Shown here piece after piece: positions 12,181 through 63,526 of a DNA stretch of 64,000 nt. Source of the DNA: Bartonella queenslandensis (lineage in GTDB: Bacteria; Pseudomonadota; Alphaproteobacteria; Rhizobiales; Rhizobiaceae); the NCBI RefSeq assembly GCF_018155095.1, contig NZ_NAAI01000008.1, forward strand, positions 1 to 64,000, written 5' to 3'. The stretch's first letter is position 1. The number at the start of each line of letters is the position of its first letter. The notes under the pieces were generated by a model. It searched no databases, had not been told where the DNA came from, and worked only from the letters and a program-made list of their open reading frames with translations. A program made the translations under genes and the position numbers.

Positions 12181-12280
12181 TGAAATTGCGACAAAACGCA
12201 CCGCATCAATCGTTTTTTCTTTATCAAGAATTGTGTAAAAAAGCCAAACATAAACAGTAAAGCTCGCTCGCAACCCCCAT

Positions 12281-12386
12281 TAACCAGAGTCATAACTTTT
12301 AACCGCAGTCAAAAGTGTGGAGCCAAAAGCTGCTCTTTATAAATTTAATGGCACATTATTTTTCAATACACCCAAGCGTTCTACAT
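12281..12386 (-). pseudogene. Decayed internal fragment of the ABC-F gene
   Basis: This aligns to about 13463-13573 inside the ABC-F ATPase gene. Shared blocks are CCAGA-TCAT-ACTTTTA, TCAAAAGTG, CTTTATA and CCCAAGCG--CTACAT, in order. It lies downstream of the intact gene and encodes nothing. Confidence 0.65.
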
Positions 12387-12438
12387 AAAGCAATGATACA
12401 ATACGAATCAAAATACTTAGATATTAATATTTGAAACA

Positions 12439-14301
12439 TTAACGTGAACATGCATCCATTTCTTCGCGTAAAATTTCAAGTTCTAGCCATTCTTCTTGCT
12501 TTTGTGTGCAAGTATTTTTCTTTTTTTCCAATGCCGTTGATAAACGTTCAAAGCGTTCTTTATCACGGCGATAAAGAGCTGGATCAGAGAGCTCTTGTTC
12601 AATTTTTTTTATTTCATTTTGCAAAACAGCGATTTCTTCAGGTAATTTTTCCAATGCATAAACCTGTTTATAAGACAGTTTTCTTGGTACTTTTTTCCCT
12701 CGCGCTATCAAGCTACCCTCTGTTGATGAGGTCTGTTTTGAAAACGCTTCCGCATGAGATTTTGAAGATTCTTTACGAGGCGATAATTTTATTTCTTTGC
12801 GTTTTGAATTCAAGACTTTCTTATTTTGCGCTATCATATCACTATAGCCGCCCGCATATAAAACCCAATGACCATCGCCTTGAGGTGCCAACATATGAGT
12901 TACAGTACGATCTAAAAAGTCTCTGTCATGGCTAACCAACAACACTGTTCCTGTAAAATCAGCAATAAATTCTTGTAACAAATCCAAAGTTTCCATATCC
13001 AAATCATTGGTCGGTTCGTCAAGAATCAAAAAATTTGCAGGACGCGAAAGAAGGCGTGCAAGCATGAGACGTGCTCTTTCTCCCCCTGAAAATTCTTTAA
13101 GGGGGGTGCGTGCTTGTTCAGGCAAAAATAAAAAGTCTTTCATATAAGAAACCACATGCCGTTCCTGCCCATTGATCACAAGAGTATCACCCCTTCCCCC
13201 CGTTAAATAATGCGCCAAAGTTTCTTCTTCATTGACAATACGTTGCTGATCAAGCAATGCTACGGAGAGGTTATAGCCATGCCTCACCGTTCCACTATCC
13301 ACAGCTTCTTTCCCAATCAATACAGAAAGGAGCGTTGTTTTTCCAATACCATTAGGCCCGACCAATCCGATTCGATCCCCCCGTTGAATGCGTAAAGAGA
13401 AATCTTTCACAATAACGCGCTCACCATAAGATTTTAAAACTTTCTTTGCTTCAAGCACCAGTTGACCAGAATCATGACTTTTAGCTGCGCTCAAAAGTGC
13501 ACTTCCCGGCTGTCCTTTATAGGTTTGATGACGCTGTCGTAATTCTTTTAATTCGCCCAAGCGCCGTACATTACGCTTACGCCGTGCACTCACGCCATAA
13601 CGCAACCATTGCTCTTCACGAGCAATTTGGCGCCCCAATTTATGCTGCTCAATCGCTTCTTCTTCCAGTGCTTTATCACGCCAATTTTCAAACTCAGAAA
13701 AACGCTTTTCCAGCCTTTTGGTTGTGCCACGATCAAGCCATACCGTTGAACGCGTAACATTTTCTAAAAATCTCCGATCATGGGAAATCACCACAATTGC
13801 TGAACGCAAAGAAGACAAAACCCCTTCCAACCATTCAATGGTTGGCAAATCAAGATGATTGGTTGGTTCATCTAAGAACAAAATATCAGGCTTTGCAGCA
13901 ATGGCCCGTAACAATGAAACACGCCTCTTTTCACCCCCTGAAAGCGTTTCTAATTTTTCTACCCCCGAAAACCCTAAATTTGTGCGAAGCGTATTGATCC
14001 ACTGGACATCAGATGTCTCGTCCAGCCCCGCTTCCATATAAGCGTTAATATCTTCAAAACCCGAACAATCCGGATTTTGAGAGACATAACGAAGTGTCAC
14101 CCGAGGGTGGCGAAAAATTTCACCCCCATGAGGCTCTAATATTCCTGCGGCAATTTTCAACAGGGTCGATTTTCCACAACCATTCCGGCCCACCAACGCA
14201 ATACGCGCCCCCTGCTCAACCGATAAAAAGGCTCGGTTGAGCAAAGGCGTTGTCCCAAAGGTTAGGAAAATGCGGTCAAGCCGCAGCAATGGCACCGCCA
14301 T
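12439..14301 (-). CDS. uup: ABC-F family ATPase (Uup-like)
   Basis: Soluble protein with two ABC ATPase domains and no membrane part, the ABC-F type that acts on ribosomes or nucleic acids. Domain 1 has GRNGCGKST, LSGGEKRR and ILFLDEPTNHLD; domain 2 has GPNGIGKTT, FSGGERAR and FLILDEPTNDLD. The C-terminal ~70 residues form a coiled coil (LPEEIAVLQNEIKKIEQEL), as in Uup. I start at MAVPLLRLDRI (620 residues) because its ATG overlaps the upstream lipoprotein stop as TAATG and matches the family N terminus; an ATG seven codons earlier is open. Uup proper is a good match, but other ABC-F subtypes cannot be excluded. Confidence 0.92.
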   Translation of the reverse strand: MAVPLLRLDRIFLTFGTTPLLNRAFLSVEQGARIALVGRNGCGKSTLLKIAAGILEPHGGEIFRHPRVTLRYVSQNPDCSGFEDINAYMEAGLDETSDVQWINTLRTNLGFSGVEKLETLSGGEKRRVSLLRAIAAKPDILFLDEPTNHLDLPTIEWLEGVLSSLRSAIVVISHDRRFLENVTRSTVWLDRGTTKRLEKRFSEFENWRDKALEEEAIEQHKLGRQIAREEQWLRYGVSARRKRNVRRLGELKELRQRHQTYKGQPGSALLSAAKSHDSGQLVLEAKKVLKSYGERVIVKDFSLRIQRGDRIGLVGPNGIGKTTLLSVLIGKEAVDSGTVRHGYNLSVALLDQQRIVNEEETLAHYLTGGRGDTLVINGQERHVVSYMKDFLFLPEQARTPLKEFSGGERARLMLARLLSRPANFLILDEPTNDLDMETLDLLQEFIADFTGTVLLVSHDRDFLDRTVTHMLAPQGDGHWVLYAGGYSDMIAQNKKVLNSKRKEIKLSPRKESSKSHAEAFSKQTSSTEGSLIARGKKVPRKLSYKQVYALEKLPEEIAVLQNEIKKIEQELSDPALYRRDKERFERLSTALEKKKNTCTQKQEEWLELEILREEMDACSR

Positions 14302-39543: not shown

Positions 39544-40127
39544 CAGCTGACCTCTTTTTTCAATGCAAGCTTAAGTGAAGACAATTTTGTTAAAAGAGAC
39601 GTATCAATTTGAAACGCCCCGACACGAATGATTAATCCACCAAGAATTGTTGGATCCACAATAATATGTAGCAAAACTTTTCCCCCAATGACACCTTCCA
39701 AAGTCTCACACAACTCTTGTTTTTGTTGAGAACTTAAGGGGCGAGCAGAAACAATTTGTGCAGTAACTTGCCTTCGAGCGCGTGCAACACAACGCTGAAA
39801 AGCATGGAGAATACCAAATACAGCATTAAGCCTATGATTTGCTGCGATAACGCGTAAAAAATTACCAACAATCTGCCCTGCTTCTTTATCAGTAAATTTG
39901 ATGTTTTCACAAACAGATTGTATCACCTTAATTTGCTCTTTGACTGAAAAGAACGGACTGAGCACGAAGCGTTTTAAATCTTCATTTTGCTCTAAGACAA
40001 ACAAAAAATCTTCCACTGCCTTTTCAATCTTTTCAACGTTTCCTGCTTCTTGAACGCAATTAAAAAACGCTTGCGCATAACGTTGATCTACCAACGGCAG
40101 CGGTATGAGAGAAAATGAATCCGACAC
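39543..40127 (-). CDS. atpH: ATP synthase F1 subunit delta
   Basis: Peripheral-stalk subunit joining F1 to F0, 194 residues. The N-terminal helical domain begins [19 protein letters not shown]. The C-terminal segment [20 protein letters not shown] followed by [19 protein letters not shown] is the family signature. First gene of the F1 operon. The F0 genes are elsewhere, as usual in Hyphomicrobiales. Confidence 0.95.
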
Positions 40128-49916: not shown

Positions 49917-50104
49917 AGCAATTTTCCTTCATATAAATTCACTCCCCCTTCATATAAATTCCTATTGAAAACTCTAAGAACAAGCCAAAAACAATAGAAA
50001 TGAGAAAAAATATTCCCCTCACAATCAATAAAAAAGCAACTCTAGCAGAAAAAACACCCGTCTCTCCTTGTCCTCCCCGTCTTTCCACCCCCTCTTTCCA
50101 CCCT

Positions 50105-50235
50105 ATGAGCAAAATGAGCAAAAAATGCACCTTCTAAAGTTTCTCACCAACACATTCTCACCCCCCACAATGACTTCAAGACAACCCTGCAATTTGGCTT
50201 GCATGCTCTCACACCTTAACGCTTCATTACTCTCC
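50105..50235 (+). pseudogene. Decayed copy of the YggS-family gene 3' end
   Basis: Aligns to about 49785-49910 (AGCAAAA--AGCAAAA, AATGA-TT-AA-ACA, CAATTTGG-TT-) in the same order and orientation. No open frame is kept. It sits just before integrase-remnant copy J. Confidence 0.6.
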
Positions 50236-50263: not shown

Positions 50264-50644
50264 AACATTGATTTATAATGGTAATCTAGCGTTATTCAAC
50301 TTGAATGAGAGCCCCGAATATCGTAAGATTCTCTCATTCCAAACCTATTTATATTGAATCAATCAAAACCACTTGCTTGCACATTACAAATGGAATGTGT
50401 GTATGGATAAAATTTGTATAAAAAAGGAATAAAAATGGCTCTTATGAACGCTCTCAAGTACCAAAGGCTGCCGCAACACAAGAGAGCTGGAAAAGTGTGT
50501 GATGGTACCAGCTTGCTCCTTCATAAGCCCAAAGATGGGGGGGCTCAATGGATTTATCATTATACCAATCACGCGCACCGTTTTGAGATGGGCTTTGCTG
50601 CCTTGAGAAACGTCTCTTTAAAGCACCCAAAAAAGAAATCCTGA
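50264..50644 (+). repeat. Integrase-remnant repeat, copy J (best preserved)
   Basis: Leader ATTGATTTATAATGGTAAT; perfect 9-bp hairpin arms GAATGAGAG and CTCTCATTC around GAATATCGTAAG; then GGAATAAAAATG starts an open 69-codon frame (50435-50644). It reads MALMNALKYQRLPQHKRAGK, VCDGTSLLLHKPKDGGAQWI and a later MGFAALRNVSLKH, the N-terminal arm domain of P4/CP4-57-type integrases. The catalytic domain is absent. Confidence 0.85.
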
Positions 50645-50877
50645 ATATAAAGGCAAAATGATAAAAATAGAGACGTTATACATGAATGAAAAAACTGTCG
50701 TGAAATAAATAATCGCAAAAGAATATTCAGCACGCTTATCGCAATGATTGCCATTAAAAACCAAGAATTCTCTCAAACTTGTCTAATATGCGTAAACAAT
50801 TTCCCCACCTACCAATGACGTAAAGCAGGCAAAAGAGGCTTAGGACGATCAATACAGAACTTCAATTCTCGTGTAAG

Positions 50878-50973
50878 TCACTTGGGCACAATCAGCACCT
50901 TCAATACCAAAGCGAACATAAAAAAAACAGCGCTAAACAACATGATAACAATCATAAGGACAAACGATAACAT
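50878..50973 (-). CDS. Candidate 31-residue membrane peptide
   Basis: A short minus-strand ORF, MLSFVLMIVIMLFSAVFFMF plus LVLKVLIVPK, which would be a single membrane helix with a basic end. An upstream TTG could extend it by 14 residues. The ribosome site is weak and no family is recognised. It lies in the same AT-rich island as the glycine-zipper ORF. It may equally be the tail of a lost gene. Confidence 0.25.
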   Translation of the reverse strand: MLSFVLMIVIMLFSAVFFMFALVLKVLIVPK

Positions 50974-51484
50974 AGAGTTTTCTACACACTGAGAGGAGCA
51001 AGATGCAATCAACAATCACTAAAAAAGTATTCATATCAATCCGCAGAAACACACAATAACAATACAACTGAATTCAATTATTAAATATCCCCTTGTTATT
51101 CTCATAAATTAAAAGAAAAACACTAACTTTTTATATGGGAAATTCTTCTAATTTTAAATTTTAATTAAGAAAAATAGGATAATATTTCAATTAAAATTTA
51201 GATTAATATAAGCAATATTCTTCTCTTATTAAGAATAAGACTTCATATATTCATAATAATATTTATTTTTTAAAGAGTATTTAATTGATATAAAGCAAAA
51301 TTATATTTGATACTTCTCTAAAATTCGTGATAACAATTTGAAATGTATCATTGTGATACTATTTTAGGTAGATAATTCAAGGGAGGTAAGGAGAGATTTT
51401 GGTTCAGGTTTAACTTATACGATACATGACTCAACACCTATCATTTATGGAAGTGCATGTAGACCTAGTGATTTTATAAATCAC

Positions 51485-51661
51485 ATGAATGCACAGGGCT
51501 TCGCAGTAGGAGTACCGTCAGGAGTAGTGGGTGCACTTCAAGGTGGTATAGCTGAGGGGCCAGTAGGAGCATTTACGGGTGGAATGAGAGCTTTTGCATT
51601 GGGATTCACAGGAGGTGCCATTTTGGGCTTTATAGATAAAGCTCATGAGTGTTGGTTCTAA
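51485..51661 (+). CDS. Glycine-zipper bacteriocin-like small protein (start uncertain)
   Basis: 58 residues from the only in-frame ATG; the frame is open upstream to 51368. The sequence is rich in Gly and small residues in GxxxG spacing (GVPSGVVGALQGGIAEG and GGMRAFALGFTGGAILG) and ends HECWF. Upstream codons read REVRRDFGSG then LTYTIHDSTP and SACRPSDF, which looks like the end of a double-glycine leader followed by the mature N terminus, with one Cys near each end. This layout recalls colicin-V-type microcins and class IIc bacteriocins. No start codon for a leader is visible, so the gene may be broken. Family assignment is inference. Confidence 0.4.
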   Translation: MNAQGFAVGVPSGVVGALQGGIAEGPVGAFTGGMRAFALGFTGGAILGFIDKAHECWF

Positions 51662-51817
51662 TTTATAGAGAATAGCGACAAAGATATCCCTGAAGTTAAA
51701 TAATTTTGTAAGTATATTTTCAAGAATATATCATAATTAAATATCTCCATCTATGGATAAAATATTTTTCAGGGATATCTATTATTTATAATATATTATA
51801 ATTTAGGATTTTTTATA

Positions 51818-52005
51818 ATGAATATTCGTTATGAAATAATAAGGCTTTTTTGCATCCTCATTGTATTCTCCCCTATATATGCTATTGGTTTAAAAAAATT
51901 GGGGGCTACAGTTGGAAACTATCTATAAAATCAACATTATATACAGTAATTCTGTACATTATTATTGATATTTTGTGTAGATATTTTGGTTTATTTAATT
52001 ATTAA
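51818..52005 (+). pseudogene. Two-helix small membrane ORF, frameshifted (immunity-like)
   Basis: An ATG frame reads MNIRYEIIRLFCILIVFSPI plus YAIGLKK, a membrane helix, then stops at 51928. One base of shift at the A7 run continues as GGYSWKLSIKSTLYTVILYI plus IIDILCRYFGLFNY to a stop at 52005. The joined ~62-residue product would have two membrane helices, the size and layout of many microcin immunity proteins. It lies 157 bp after the glycine-zipper ORF on the same strand. Whether the shift is real decay, slippage or sequencing error is open. Confidence 0.4.
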
Positions 52006-62051: not shown

Positions 62052-63526
62052 TGCCTTACCTTTGCAAGCGAATGGGGAATACCATCAACAACTTCCGAGC
62101 GTGATACATCCACGGCACCATCCCATCCCCCCCCCAAAGCCTTCATCAAAGCAATATATTGGGTAGCTAAAGCAATACGGCTATCTTTAAGTGCCATTTG
62201 CGCAGAATAATAGGAACGATCAGCATTTAACAATTCAAGAAAACTGGTATTGCCATTTTCAAAAAGACTTCGTGAAAGTTGTAAAGAATGCATAAAAGCT
62301 TTATTTGCAACGACTAGCTTTTCAAGGCGCTGATGTTCCTTTGTTAATCTTACGAGCGCATTTTCGACATCTTCTAAAGCCCCCAATACAGCCGCGCGAT
62401 AAGTAATAAAAGCCTGATCACGCTGTGCCCGCGCCATCGCAATAGAGGCAACAATCTGTCCTCCATTAAAGAAAGGGAAACGAAGATTAGGACCAAAAGA
62501 CCAACCAATGGTTGAACTTTTCCATAATTGATCCATTGCTGTTGTTGCTGTTGAAATATTCCCCGTTAATGTAAGCGACGGATAACGTTCTGCCTCACGT
62601 TGACCGATGCGTGCTGTTGCTTGTGCATATTGCCGCTCTGCCCGTCGCAAATCGGGACGTGTCAACAAAATATCTGCCGGAATTCCTGCTGGTATTGGCC
62701 ATTGTGGTTGTGGAATTTTTACGTGTTTGGCATTTTTTTGCAAAAGATTCTTCAAAGCCGTAGGGACATGACCGGTTAAGACAGAAAGGCGATGTATACT
62801 CATAGCCACATTTGCTTCCATCTGAGCAATATCGGCTTCTGTATTAGCCATTTGCGCTTTTGCATTTGAAACATCAAGCTCTGAAATATTACCTGCTGTT
62901 AATTTGGTCTGCATTAATTCATATGTTTTGCGTTGTGTCGCCGCAATTTGCCGCACAATTAATAGTTTTTGTTGCCACCCGCGCATTTGAACATAATTTG
63001 TTGCCACCTCTCCTAACAATATGACCATCGTCGCACGCATATCTTCCACCACCGCTTCAAGACCGTAACGTGCTGCTTCAACACCTCGCTTATGCCCTCC
63101 AAAAAAATCAAGCTCCCAACTTGCATCAAATCCACTACGATATTGGTTCAACGTATCAGATTGTCCAGATCCACTACGGGTTCCTGAAATTGTATTTGAC
63201 ATACTTGGCAATAAAGATCCCACCACTTGCCCTAAGCTCGCACGCGCCTCACGAATCCGCGCTTTGGCAACCGCAATATCATTATTTCCAGAAATTGCCT
63301 GATCCATTAATGTATTTAAAACCGGATCATTTAAAGGCCGCCACCACCCTGCAAGCGCAATTGAATGCCCAGATATCTGTGCAGACTGCTGTCCCCACCG
63401 CGCTGGAACAGAAAAAGATGTCTTATGATAATTTGGACCAACCATACATCCAGACAAAAGAAAACACAGCACAACATTCGAAATTAATCTACTAGAAATT
63501 CCCCTTTTGAGATTTCTGATATGCAT
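62048..63526 (-). CDS. NodT-family outer membrane efflux lipoprotein
   Basis: TolC-like channel of the NodT/OprM type, 492 residues. The signal peptide SNVVLCFLLSGC ends in a lipobox (Cys27), followed by MVGPNYHK, the family hallmark. Two repeated helical hairpins (ISGNNDIAVAKARIREARAS; LTRPDLRRAERQYAQATARI) form the trans-periplasmic barrel. It is first in an operon with macA and macB, so the complete tripartite pump is encoded together. Confidence 0.93.
   Translation of the reverse strand: MHIRNLKRGISSRLISNVVLCFLLSGCMVGPNYHKTSFSVPARWGQQSAQISGHSIALAGWWRPLNDPVLNTLMDQAISGNNDIAVAKARIREARASLGQVVGSLLPSMSNTISGTRSGSGQSDTLNQYRSGFDASWELDFFGGHKRGVEAARYGLEAVVEDMRATMVILLGEVATNYVQMRGWQQKLLIVRQIAATQRKTYELMQTKLTAGNISELDVSNAKAQMANTEADIAQMEANVAMSIHRLSVLTGHVPTALKNLLQKNAKHVKIPQPQWPIPAGIPADILLTRPDLRRAERQYAQATARIGQREAERYPSLTLTGNISTATTAMDQLWKSSTIGWSFGPNLRFPFFNGGQIVASIAMARAQRDQAFITYRAAVLGALEDVENALVRLTKEHQRLEKLVVANKAFMHSLQLSRSLFENGNTSFLELLNADRSYYSAQMALKDSRIALATQYIALMKALGGGWDGAVDVSRSEVVDGIPHSLAKVRQ

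Follow-up and report, generated by a model that had tools for sequence, protein, structure and literature searches.

A Worn Unit between yggS and acs in Bartonella queenslandensis, Probably a Decayed Orphan of a Type I-Secreted, Lysine-Acylated Glycine-Zipper Bacteriocin-Like System

A stretch of 64,000 nucleotides from Bartonella queenslandensis (contig NZ_NAAI01000008.1, positions 1 to 64,000; here called the window) contains at 51.3 to 52.0 kb, between yggS and acs, a worn copy of a small secreted-peptide gene together with a likely protector gene. This element probably represents an orphan unit, now decayed, of a Bartonella system of type I-secreted, lysine-acylated, leaderless glycine-zipper (GZ) bacteriocin-like peptides with immunity proteins. 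Sequence analysis establishes its homology, synteny, and gene order, a palindrome, a hairpin, a lysine pattern, a relic of an hlyB-type exporter gene, and the breakage of its genes. An earlier description made from the letters alone (the sequence-only reading) had proposed a colicin-V-type microcin with its immunity gene; the bacteriocin-like GZ peptide and the immunity-like gene stand, while the colicin-V type falls for want of a leader and of a C39 peptidase.

The GZ frame of the window comprises 97 codons (96 residues plus the stop) with 17.7% glycine, two cysteines, and seven overlapping GxxxG motifs, as that reading had described it on the plus strand. The earliest ATG, GTG, or TTG within the frame is codon 39. 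Positions 51389 to 51391 read AGG where the aligned relatives have ATG, which, with the frameshifted partner, agrees with the earlier suggestion of a relic without a clear start codon; genomes G050 and G064 have lost the ATG, too. The length of the frame was dropped as evidence, since dinucleotide shuffles of the AT-rich island often give such open runs (206 runs of at least 96 codons in 1,000 shuffles). A run of this length with at least six GxxxG motifs occurred in none of 1,000 such shuffles. The second open reading frame (ORF) begins at 51818, 156 bp past the GZ stop, and genome G066 has an intact orthologue of 62 aa in the equivalent location (L039:7265-7453). Residues 1 to 29 of this orthologue are found in one window frame and residues 18 to 62 in another (E values of 1.4e-25 and 7e-17), bearing out the single break at an A7 run noted before.

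The family was followed through 71 Bartonella genomes, the window genome included. Matches to the GZ frame occur in 41 of these at E ≤ 1 and in 22 at E ≤ 1e-5, so the frame is indeed conserved in relatives, and all 22 of the stronger matches sit between yggS and acs. The closest relative is that of Bartonella tribocorum L103 (genome G067), with 76% identity. By an ORF rule, GZ is intact at 8 of the 22 acs loci and broken at 14. The intact alleles with a start codon whose existence was in question are thus available, and all eight are accompanied by an unbroken partner. Their peptides of 87 to 97 aa begin with MRNFGSG or MFGSF, preceded by an AGGAG-type ribosome site and the ATG. The GSG formerly taken for a cleavage-like site belongs to this conserved N terminus, and nothing was found there that marks cleavage. 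The median pairwise ratio of nonsynonymous to synonymous substitution rates (dN/dS) among nine GZ members is 0.56 (36 pairs), and judged from its sequences the GZ family is under constraint. A scan of genome_contigs gave nine loci, in Bartonella only. At the strict limit of E ≤ 1e-130, the exporter described below was found in no other genome among 297 of the order, and every exporter match in 2,494 plasmid records shows less than 60% identity. A phage origin was rejected: among 50,697 phage records, a tblastn search with GZ of B. tribocorum found one weak match (E of 0.9).

A wider set of 29 GZ ORFs comes from a rule-based search of 37 stretches selected for the presence of a peptide or hlyB match; one of these stretches, with 3 of the ORFs, belongs to the window genome itself. 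Each of the 29 is followed within 750 nt downstream by an ORF of 45 to 100 aa with two predicted membrane helices, compared to 64 of 400 random positions. Up to six partner ORFs stand at one acs locus. Among the 14 acs loci with a broken GZ, an intact partner is kept at 7, and none is left at the other 7, the window among them. A single-sequence AlphaFold model of one partner shows two helices with a predicted local distance difference test score (pLDDT) of 77.

The likely exporter for GZ, judged by homology, is the HlyB/HlyD pair encoded on a different contig of the same genome. Contig C1 carries the own-genome relatives of GZ in a cluster with a 555-aa HlyB-type transporter and an HlyD-type adaptor; three GZ ORFs of 96, 281, and 101 aa are divergent from these genes, and each is followed by two-helix ORFs of 59 to 78 aa. 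The best model for this HlyB among 203 families is TIGR01846, with 439 bits against a curated cutoff of 726 and thus below it. The alignment starts only at position 120 of 694, leaving the N-terminal ∼120 positions of the model missing. The own-genome HlyB is 93% identical to that of G066. Full-length unbroken copies (at least 549 of 555 residues) are present in 13 of the 71 genomes, and matches at E ≤ 1e-60 are present in 32. In 10 of 14 full-length unbroken copies, the open frame measures 557 residues against the 555 of the protein and therefore offers no space for an N-terminal domain. Peptidase_C39 is absent from the window genome by profile search, with a model that detects the family in 8 of 14 control genomes. 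A match to hlyB at E ≤ 1e-60 accompanies 19 of the 22 genomes with an acs-locus GZ, compared to 13 of the 49 others, a comparison that ignores ancestry. A TolC model passes its cutoff in the own genome on contig C4, and another match, below the cutoff, lies at window positions 62132 to 63313. HlyD has 441 aa in G067, G018, and G066. In the window genome, locus L041 contains at ∼12190 to 13950 (minus strand) an in-frame stop in hlyD and an out-of-frame hlyC 5' end, both intact in relatives. In G018, the hlyB frame extends to 622 aa beyond the usual end, across the hlyD start (L040:2045-3913).

Downstream of hlyD lies a gene of the HlyC family (PF02794; C1:330193-330546). Of the 71 genomes, 29 carry the family at E ≤ 0.001, 28 of these over the cutoff, as against none of 14 control genomes. 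In 28 of the 29 genomes, with G023 as the exception, HlyC is placed 1,349 to 1,540 nt downstream of the hlyB match, a distance equal to the room taken by hlyD. Four Bartonella copies show 40 to 42% identity with an annotated toxin-activating lysine-acyltransferase from pSymB of Sinorhizobium meliloti. The HlyC match of the window genome begins at model position 11, with the preceding residues in another frame, and the gene looks damaged. With the start codon of GZ lost, the immunity ORF frameshifted, a stop in hlyD, and the 5' end of hlyC out of frame, the window element is a real relic that is probably silent.

A lysine stands exactly four residues ahead of the last cysteine in 24 of the 29 GZ ORFs. 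Other offsets from 1 to 10 carry a lysine in zero to two ORFs, and the overall lysine frequency is 2.3%; the pattern was no part of the rule by which the ORFs were picked. This residue is the sole lysine of the window frame and of seven of the eight intact acs-locus peptides, and all seven fused GZ ORFs of more than 180 aa repeat the Lys-x3-Cys arrangement two to four times. The exceptions are the truncated, cysteine-less L067:4284 and the ORFs L040:10635, L041:15853, L070:11164, and L071:5220. A cysteine within the last 12 residues and a C-x2-4-[DGA]-[YF] motif are each present in 27 of the 29. Because an HlyC-family enzyme adjoins the exporter, acylation of the lysine would be the simplest reading of the pattern. 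Within the same clusters, the lysine-free GZ ORFs L041:15853-16143, L040:10635-10982, and L070:11164-11478 are perhaps unmodified partner peptides. Fused GZ ORFs of 197 to 281 aa with repeated Lys-x3-Cys occur at L041:17279-18124, L037, L040, L064, L065, L068, and L074, with a 213-bp tandem repeat in L041; these are possible multitoxin precursors.

The island around the unit is not otherwise empty, as it had been called. On the minus strand, divergent from GZ, it contains a decayed remnant of the 5' part of an hlyB-type gene (tblastn E of 9e-15, 33.5% identity, 7 stops), with a further weak piece at 50633 to 50719. The likely pump genes, with hlyC beside them, lie on the other contig, beyond the view of the sequence-only reading. 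With E < 1e-5 as the limit, relics of the hlyB 5' end lie beside GZ at 18 of the 22 acs loci; of the remaining four, two show weaker ones and two show none. None of these matches extends beyond residue 220 of 555, and each is on the minus strand. Exporter clusters, such as those of G018 and G038, also contain fresh copies of the hlyB 5' end, placed between one peptide gene and the next. The simplest reading of this arrangement would be a duplicating unit made of the hlyB 5' end, the divergent promoter, the peptide, and the partner, with the yggS-acs unit as an old copy in which the hlyB part has rotted and the peptide has stayed constrained. At window positions 50085 to 50210 (plus strand), there is a decayed second copy of the yggS 3' end (46% over residues 185 to 223), and a partial yggS copy is likewise present at L047:4600-4908; the former could indicate where the unit was inserted. 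The segment at ∼50261 to 50600 matches stretches elsewhere in the loci of relatives (L049, L047, L045, and L050) and is possibly a dispersed repeat.

Upstream of the peptide genes lies an operator-like palindrome. The sequence GTATCANNNTGATAC is found 20 to 42 nt ahead of the start with at most one mismatch in 24 of the 29 GZ ORFs and with at most two in 26, compared to at most one mismatch in 23 of 5,000 random 78-nt windows. Ten one-mismatch sites exist in the window genome, two of which precede the peptides on C1. The ORF lists at seven of the eight other sites (window position 39601, the eighth, being left out) contain no convincing regulator. Every one of the 71 genomes contains shorter half-site matches, so that the motif alone is unspecific. 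The hairpin between GZ and its partner was compared in nine acs-locus members, in which three pairs are changed on both sides, with one broken cell overall. Other GZ subfamilies have different inverted repeats in the gap between peptide and partner, as judged by eye. The features of the window unit are collected in Table 1.

Table 1. Positions of the features assigned to the GZ unit in the window
Feature	Position	Strand	Remarks
Glycine-zipper bacteriocin-like frame (GZ)	51371..51661	+	Start codon lost; intact homologue with 76% identity in G067 (B. tribocorum L103)
Immunity-like two-helix ORF	51818..52005	+	One frameshift at A7 (51892-51898)
Palindrome GTATCATTGTGATAC, operator-like	51345..51359	+	Sole perfect GTATCANNNTGATAC in the 2.03-Mb assembly
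Promoter-like -35 (TTGATA) and -10 (GATAAC/ATAACA)	51307..51335	+	Conserved in relatives; 11-region upstream alignment, assigned by eye
Long-range hairpin between GZ and immunity ORF	51682..51780	+	Arms 51682-51695 and 51767-51780, 14 bp
Decayed 5' fragment of hlyB-type exporter gene	50689..51144	-	Residues 2-158 of 555, divergent from GZ

For the intact relatives, a multistep route of regulation, acylation, export, killing, and immunity is predicted. Here, a peptide of 87 to 97 aa would be expressed from a promoter with the shared palindromic operator and fatty-acylated by the HlyC-family enzyme on the conserved lysine four residues ahead of the last cysteine. The peptide would then leave the cell without leader cleavage via an HlyB/HlyD/TolC pump whose HlyB has no peptidase domain, insert into the membrane of competing, closely related bacteria, and damage it. 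A two-helix inner-membrane protein of ∼60 to 80 aa would protect the producer, and the hairpin between the genes may set the relative expression of peptide and partner. The window unit itself would have been copied, as the hlyB 5' end with promoter, GZ, and immunity gene, from an exporter cluster into the yggS-acs interval. Membrane damage is suggested by the zipper. An AlphaFold model of a GZ peptide is helical from residue 26 with a disordered N terminus (pLDDT of 76), a low-information helix for which no fold is claimed. A more general proposal is put forward only tentatively: a family of lysine-acylated bacteriocins in which leaderless GZ peptides, single or fused into several modules, share a fixed Lys-x3-Cys, modification of the HlyC type, export by a peptidase-less HlyB, and one operator and are dispersed in orphan units that carry the 5' end of the exporter gene. 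As a part of this proposal, it is conceivable that immunity genes outlive their toxins.

Several observations weigh against the assignment of the unit to such a secreted, acylated bacteriocin system. GZ shows no recognized secretion signal, and the acs-locus units do not adjoin a pump; type I genes are near GZ in the members of the clusters, while the window unit has just the decayed hlyB piece nearby. Three of the 22 GZ genomes show no hlyB match at E ≤ 1e-60. HlyC-type enzymes serve host-directed repeats-in-toxin (RTX) toxins. Four of the five ORFs that lack the lysine at its usual place share one N-terminal type and sit in the same clusters, three of them without any lysine. The dN/dS between the window GZ and that of G067 is 0.80, and the window copy may be drifting. 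The association of intact GZ with intact partner (Fisher p of 0.02) ignores shared ancestry, and the set of 29 includes two doubtful calls, L065:8509 with an internal start and L067:4284 with a truncated frame. The profile search that the sequence-only reading had suggested came out negative, as GZ, like the immunity ORFs, passed no curated cutoff in Pfam or NCBIfam. The best PADLOC match of the two kinds of ORF has an E of 0.2, and Foldseek returned no match against the PDB at E ≤ 0.001. A profile search of solved structures likewise gave chance-level matches only (best E of 0.18).

The open-license literature naming Bartonella yielded no description of the GZ system. Type I secretion, the abbreviation T1SS (type I secretion system), bacteriocin, hlyB, and hlyD do not appear in the main text of PMC3610622, nor do type I secretion or bacteriocin in the available part of PMC2697382; in the available part of PMC9336547, the sole mention of a bacteriocin is a reference title. 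For an acyltransferase together with a bacteriocin or microcin, the literature gave one related passage, in the accessible text of PMC13101503, where a class II microcin cluster of Serratia contains an annotated toxin-activating lysine-acyltransferase among its modification genes; the accessible text of PMC10949449 treats microcin C transport only.

Of the other explanations, a chance or structural GZ fragment without a partner, of the 17-kDa-antigen, OsmB, or TraT-like kind, is hardly credible. Open runs of such length are common by chance in the island, and GZ gives matches to Gly-zipper_YMGG, Gly-zipper_OmpA, and TraT; these stay below threshold, no zipper family reaches its cutoff, and the frame, the Shine-Dalgarno site, the palindrome, the lysine, and the partner are all conserved in relatives. 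A true colicin-V-type class II microcin, with a double-glycine leader that a C39 peptidase transporter removes, would explain the size, the 17 to 27% glycine, the GxxxG motifs, the two cysteines, the small membrane partner, and the type I exporter. It is nevertheless very improbable: a canonical leader occurs in 1 of the 29 GZ ORFs, and that one is a miscalled internal start, while HlyB has no N-terminal peptidase region and the genome no Peptidase_C39. HlyC relatives are thought to modify the peptide C terminus in siderophore (class IIb) microcins. A corresponding C-terminal modification in place of lysine acylation is distinctly unlikely here, since it is the lysine position, and not a C-terminal residue, that is constant across subfamilies; the cysteine-containing C-terminal ends common to 27 of the 29 and the Serratia cluster in the accessible text of PMC13101503 speak for it. 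In three clusters, inspection of the ORF lists brought up no MchC-type or nonribosomal peptide synthetase partner; no profile search for one was made.

A fairly unlikely alternative is that the peptides are type I-secreted, HlyC-activated, and membrane active on the mammalian or arthropod host, with the two-helix ORFs as helpers or self-protection in place of a defense against rivals. Bartonella is host associated, the exporter, adaptor, and HlyC-family enzyme are grouped as in RTX systems, and HlyD and a lysine-acyltransferase also neighbor the plasmid-borne exporter that comes closest (47%; S. meliloti pSymB). The many divergent peptides with their own divergent partners, the tandem partner banks, and the loci that lost the peptide and kept the partner fit toxin-immunity pairs better, and no RTX-repeat family is among the Pfam matches of the scanned GZ peptides. 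Within the preferred reading of a bacteriocin-like system, a subordinate question is whether the peptides are held on the surface of the producer and kill by contact, as in Cdz of Caulobacter crescentus. This is possible, if rather doubtful. An acyl chain would favor surface retention, and Cdz has, in the available text of PMC5380434, glycine-zipper proteins of 84 to 86 aa, divergent type I genes, and a small membrane immunity protein. Against it, the Cdz-like leader ends in G[G/A/S], whereas 13 of the 29 GZ ORFs have such a pair at residues 11 to 34, and one shows the hydrophobic pattern with it.

Bartonella has been studied for its host effectors, and a polymorphic bacteriocin-like arsenal, if true, would point to strain competition within vectors or co-infected hosts. 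If confirmed, a toxin-activating acyltransferase working on small peptides would link the field of RTX toxins to that of bacteriocins. Export that needs neither leader nor peptidase, if it takes place, would broaden the rules by which bacteriocins are searched for. The orphan units are a record of the copying, dispersal, and loss of toxin-immunity pairs.

Class II microcins resemble the GZ system in the glycine-rich peptide, the HlyD-type adaptor, TolC, and a small membrane immunity gene nearby (available text of PMC9746304 and PMC11494933). As defined in the same parts of these sources, they feature an N-terminal leader of 15 to 18 aa ending in GG or GA, with hydrophobic residues at -4, -7, and -12, and a C39 peptidase transporter. 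The GZ system has neither the double-glycine leader nor this transporter; a GG or GA at residues 11 to 34 without the hydrophobic pattern occurs in 9 of the 29 GZ ORFs. With neither a canonical leader nor a C39 transporter, the GZ system does not fit the published definition of class II microcins. The Cdz system of C. crescentus (CdzABCDI) is similar in its alphaproteobacterial type I genes, divergent from glycine-zipper proteins of ∼85 aa, and in its small membrane immunity protein (eLife 2017; available text of PMC5380434). In contrast to Cdz, the GZ system has an HlyC-family enzyme after the exporter genes, a fixed Lys-x3-Cys, no clear leader, many paralogues and orphan units, and a partner with two helices instead of three. 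Bartonella is unnamed in the main text of PMC5380434, whose available part defines Cdz-like proteins by 60 to 151 residues with a zipper, a G[G/A/S] leader, one or two uninterrupted zippers flanked by proline or charge, and type I genes within 10 kb. The intact acs-locus members, with 87 to 97 aa, and the window frame, with seven GxxxG motifs, fall within the size and zipper limits. All nine GZ members have a Gly-Pro inside the zipper, which may split it in two, an arrangement that the Cdz-like definition could allow.

RTX toxin systems (HlyCABD) likewise combine an HlyB-type transporter, HlyD, and an HlyC-family acyltransferase. They differ from the GZ system, whose substrates are small glycine-zipper peptides without an RTX-family Pfam match and whose order is hlyB-hlyD-hlyC with divergent peptides. 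The S. meliloti pSymB locus (L061, CP090106.1) is related by its exporter, 47% identical, 566 aa long, and N-terminally short, beside HlyD and the toxin-activating lysine-acyltransferase. Its listed flanks contain no glycine-rich small ORF. In CdiA and Rhs systems, orphan toxin-immunity modules are extra units carrying a piece of the parent gene. GZ orphan units also carry such a piece, which in their case comes from the 5' end of the exporter gene that lies divergent, and unlike the CdiA and Rhs modules, each keeps its own promoter and palindrome. The mode of action of the GZ system would be that of a Cdz or colicin-V-type bacteriocin, supplemented by an activating enzyme of the RTX type.
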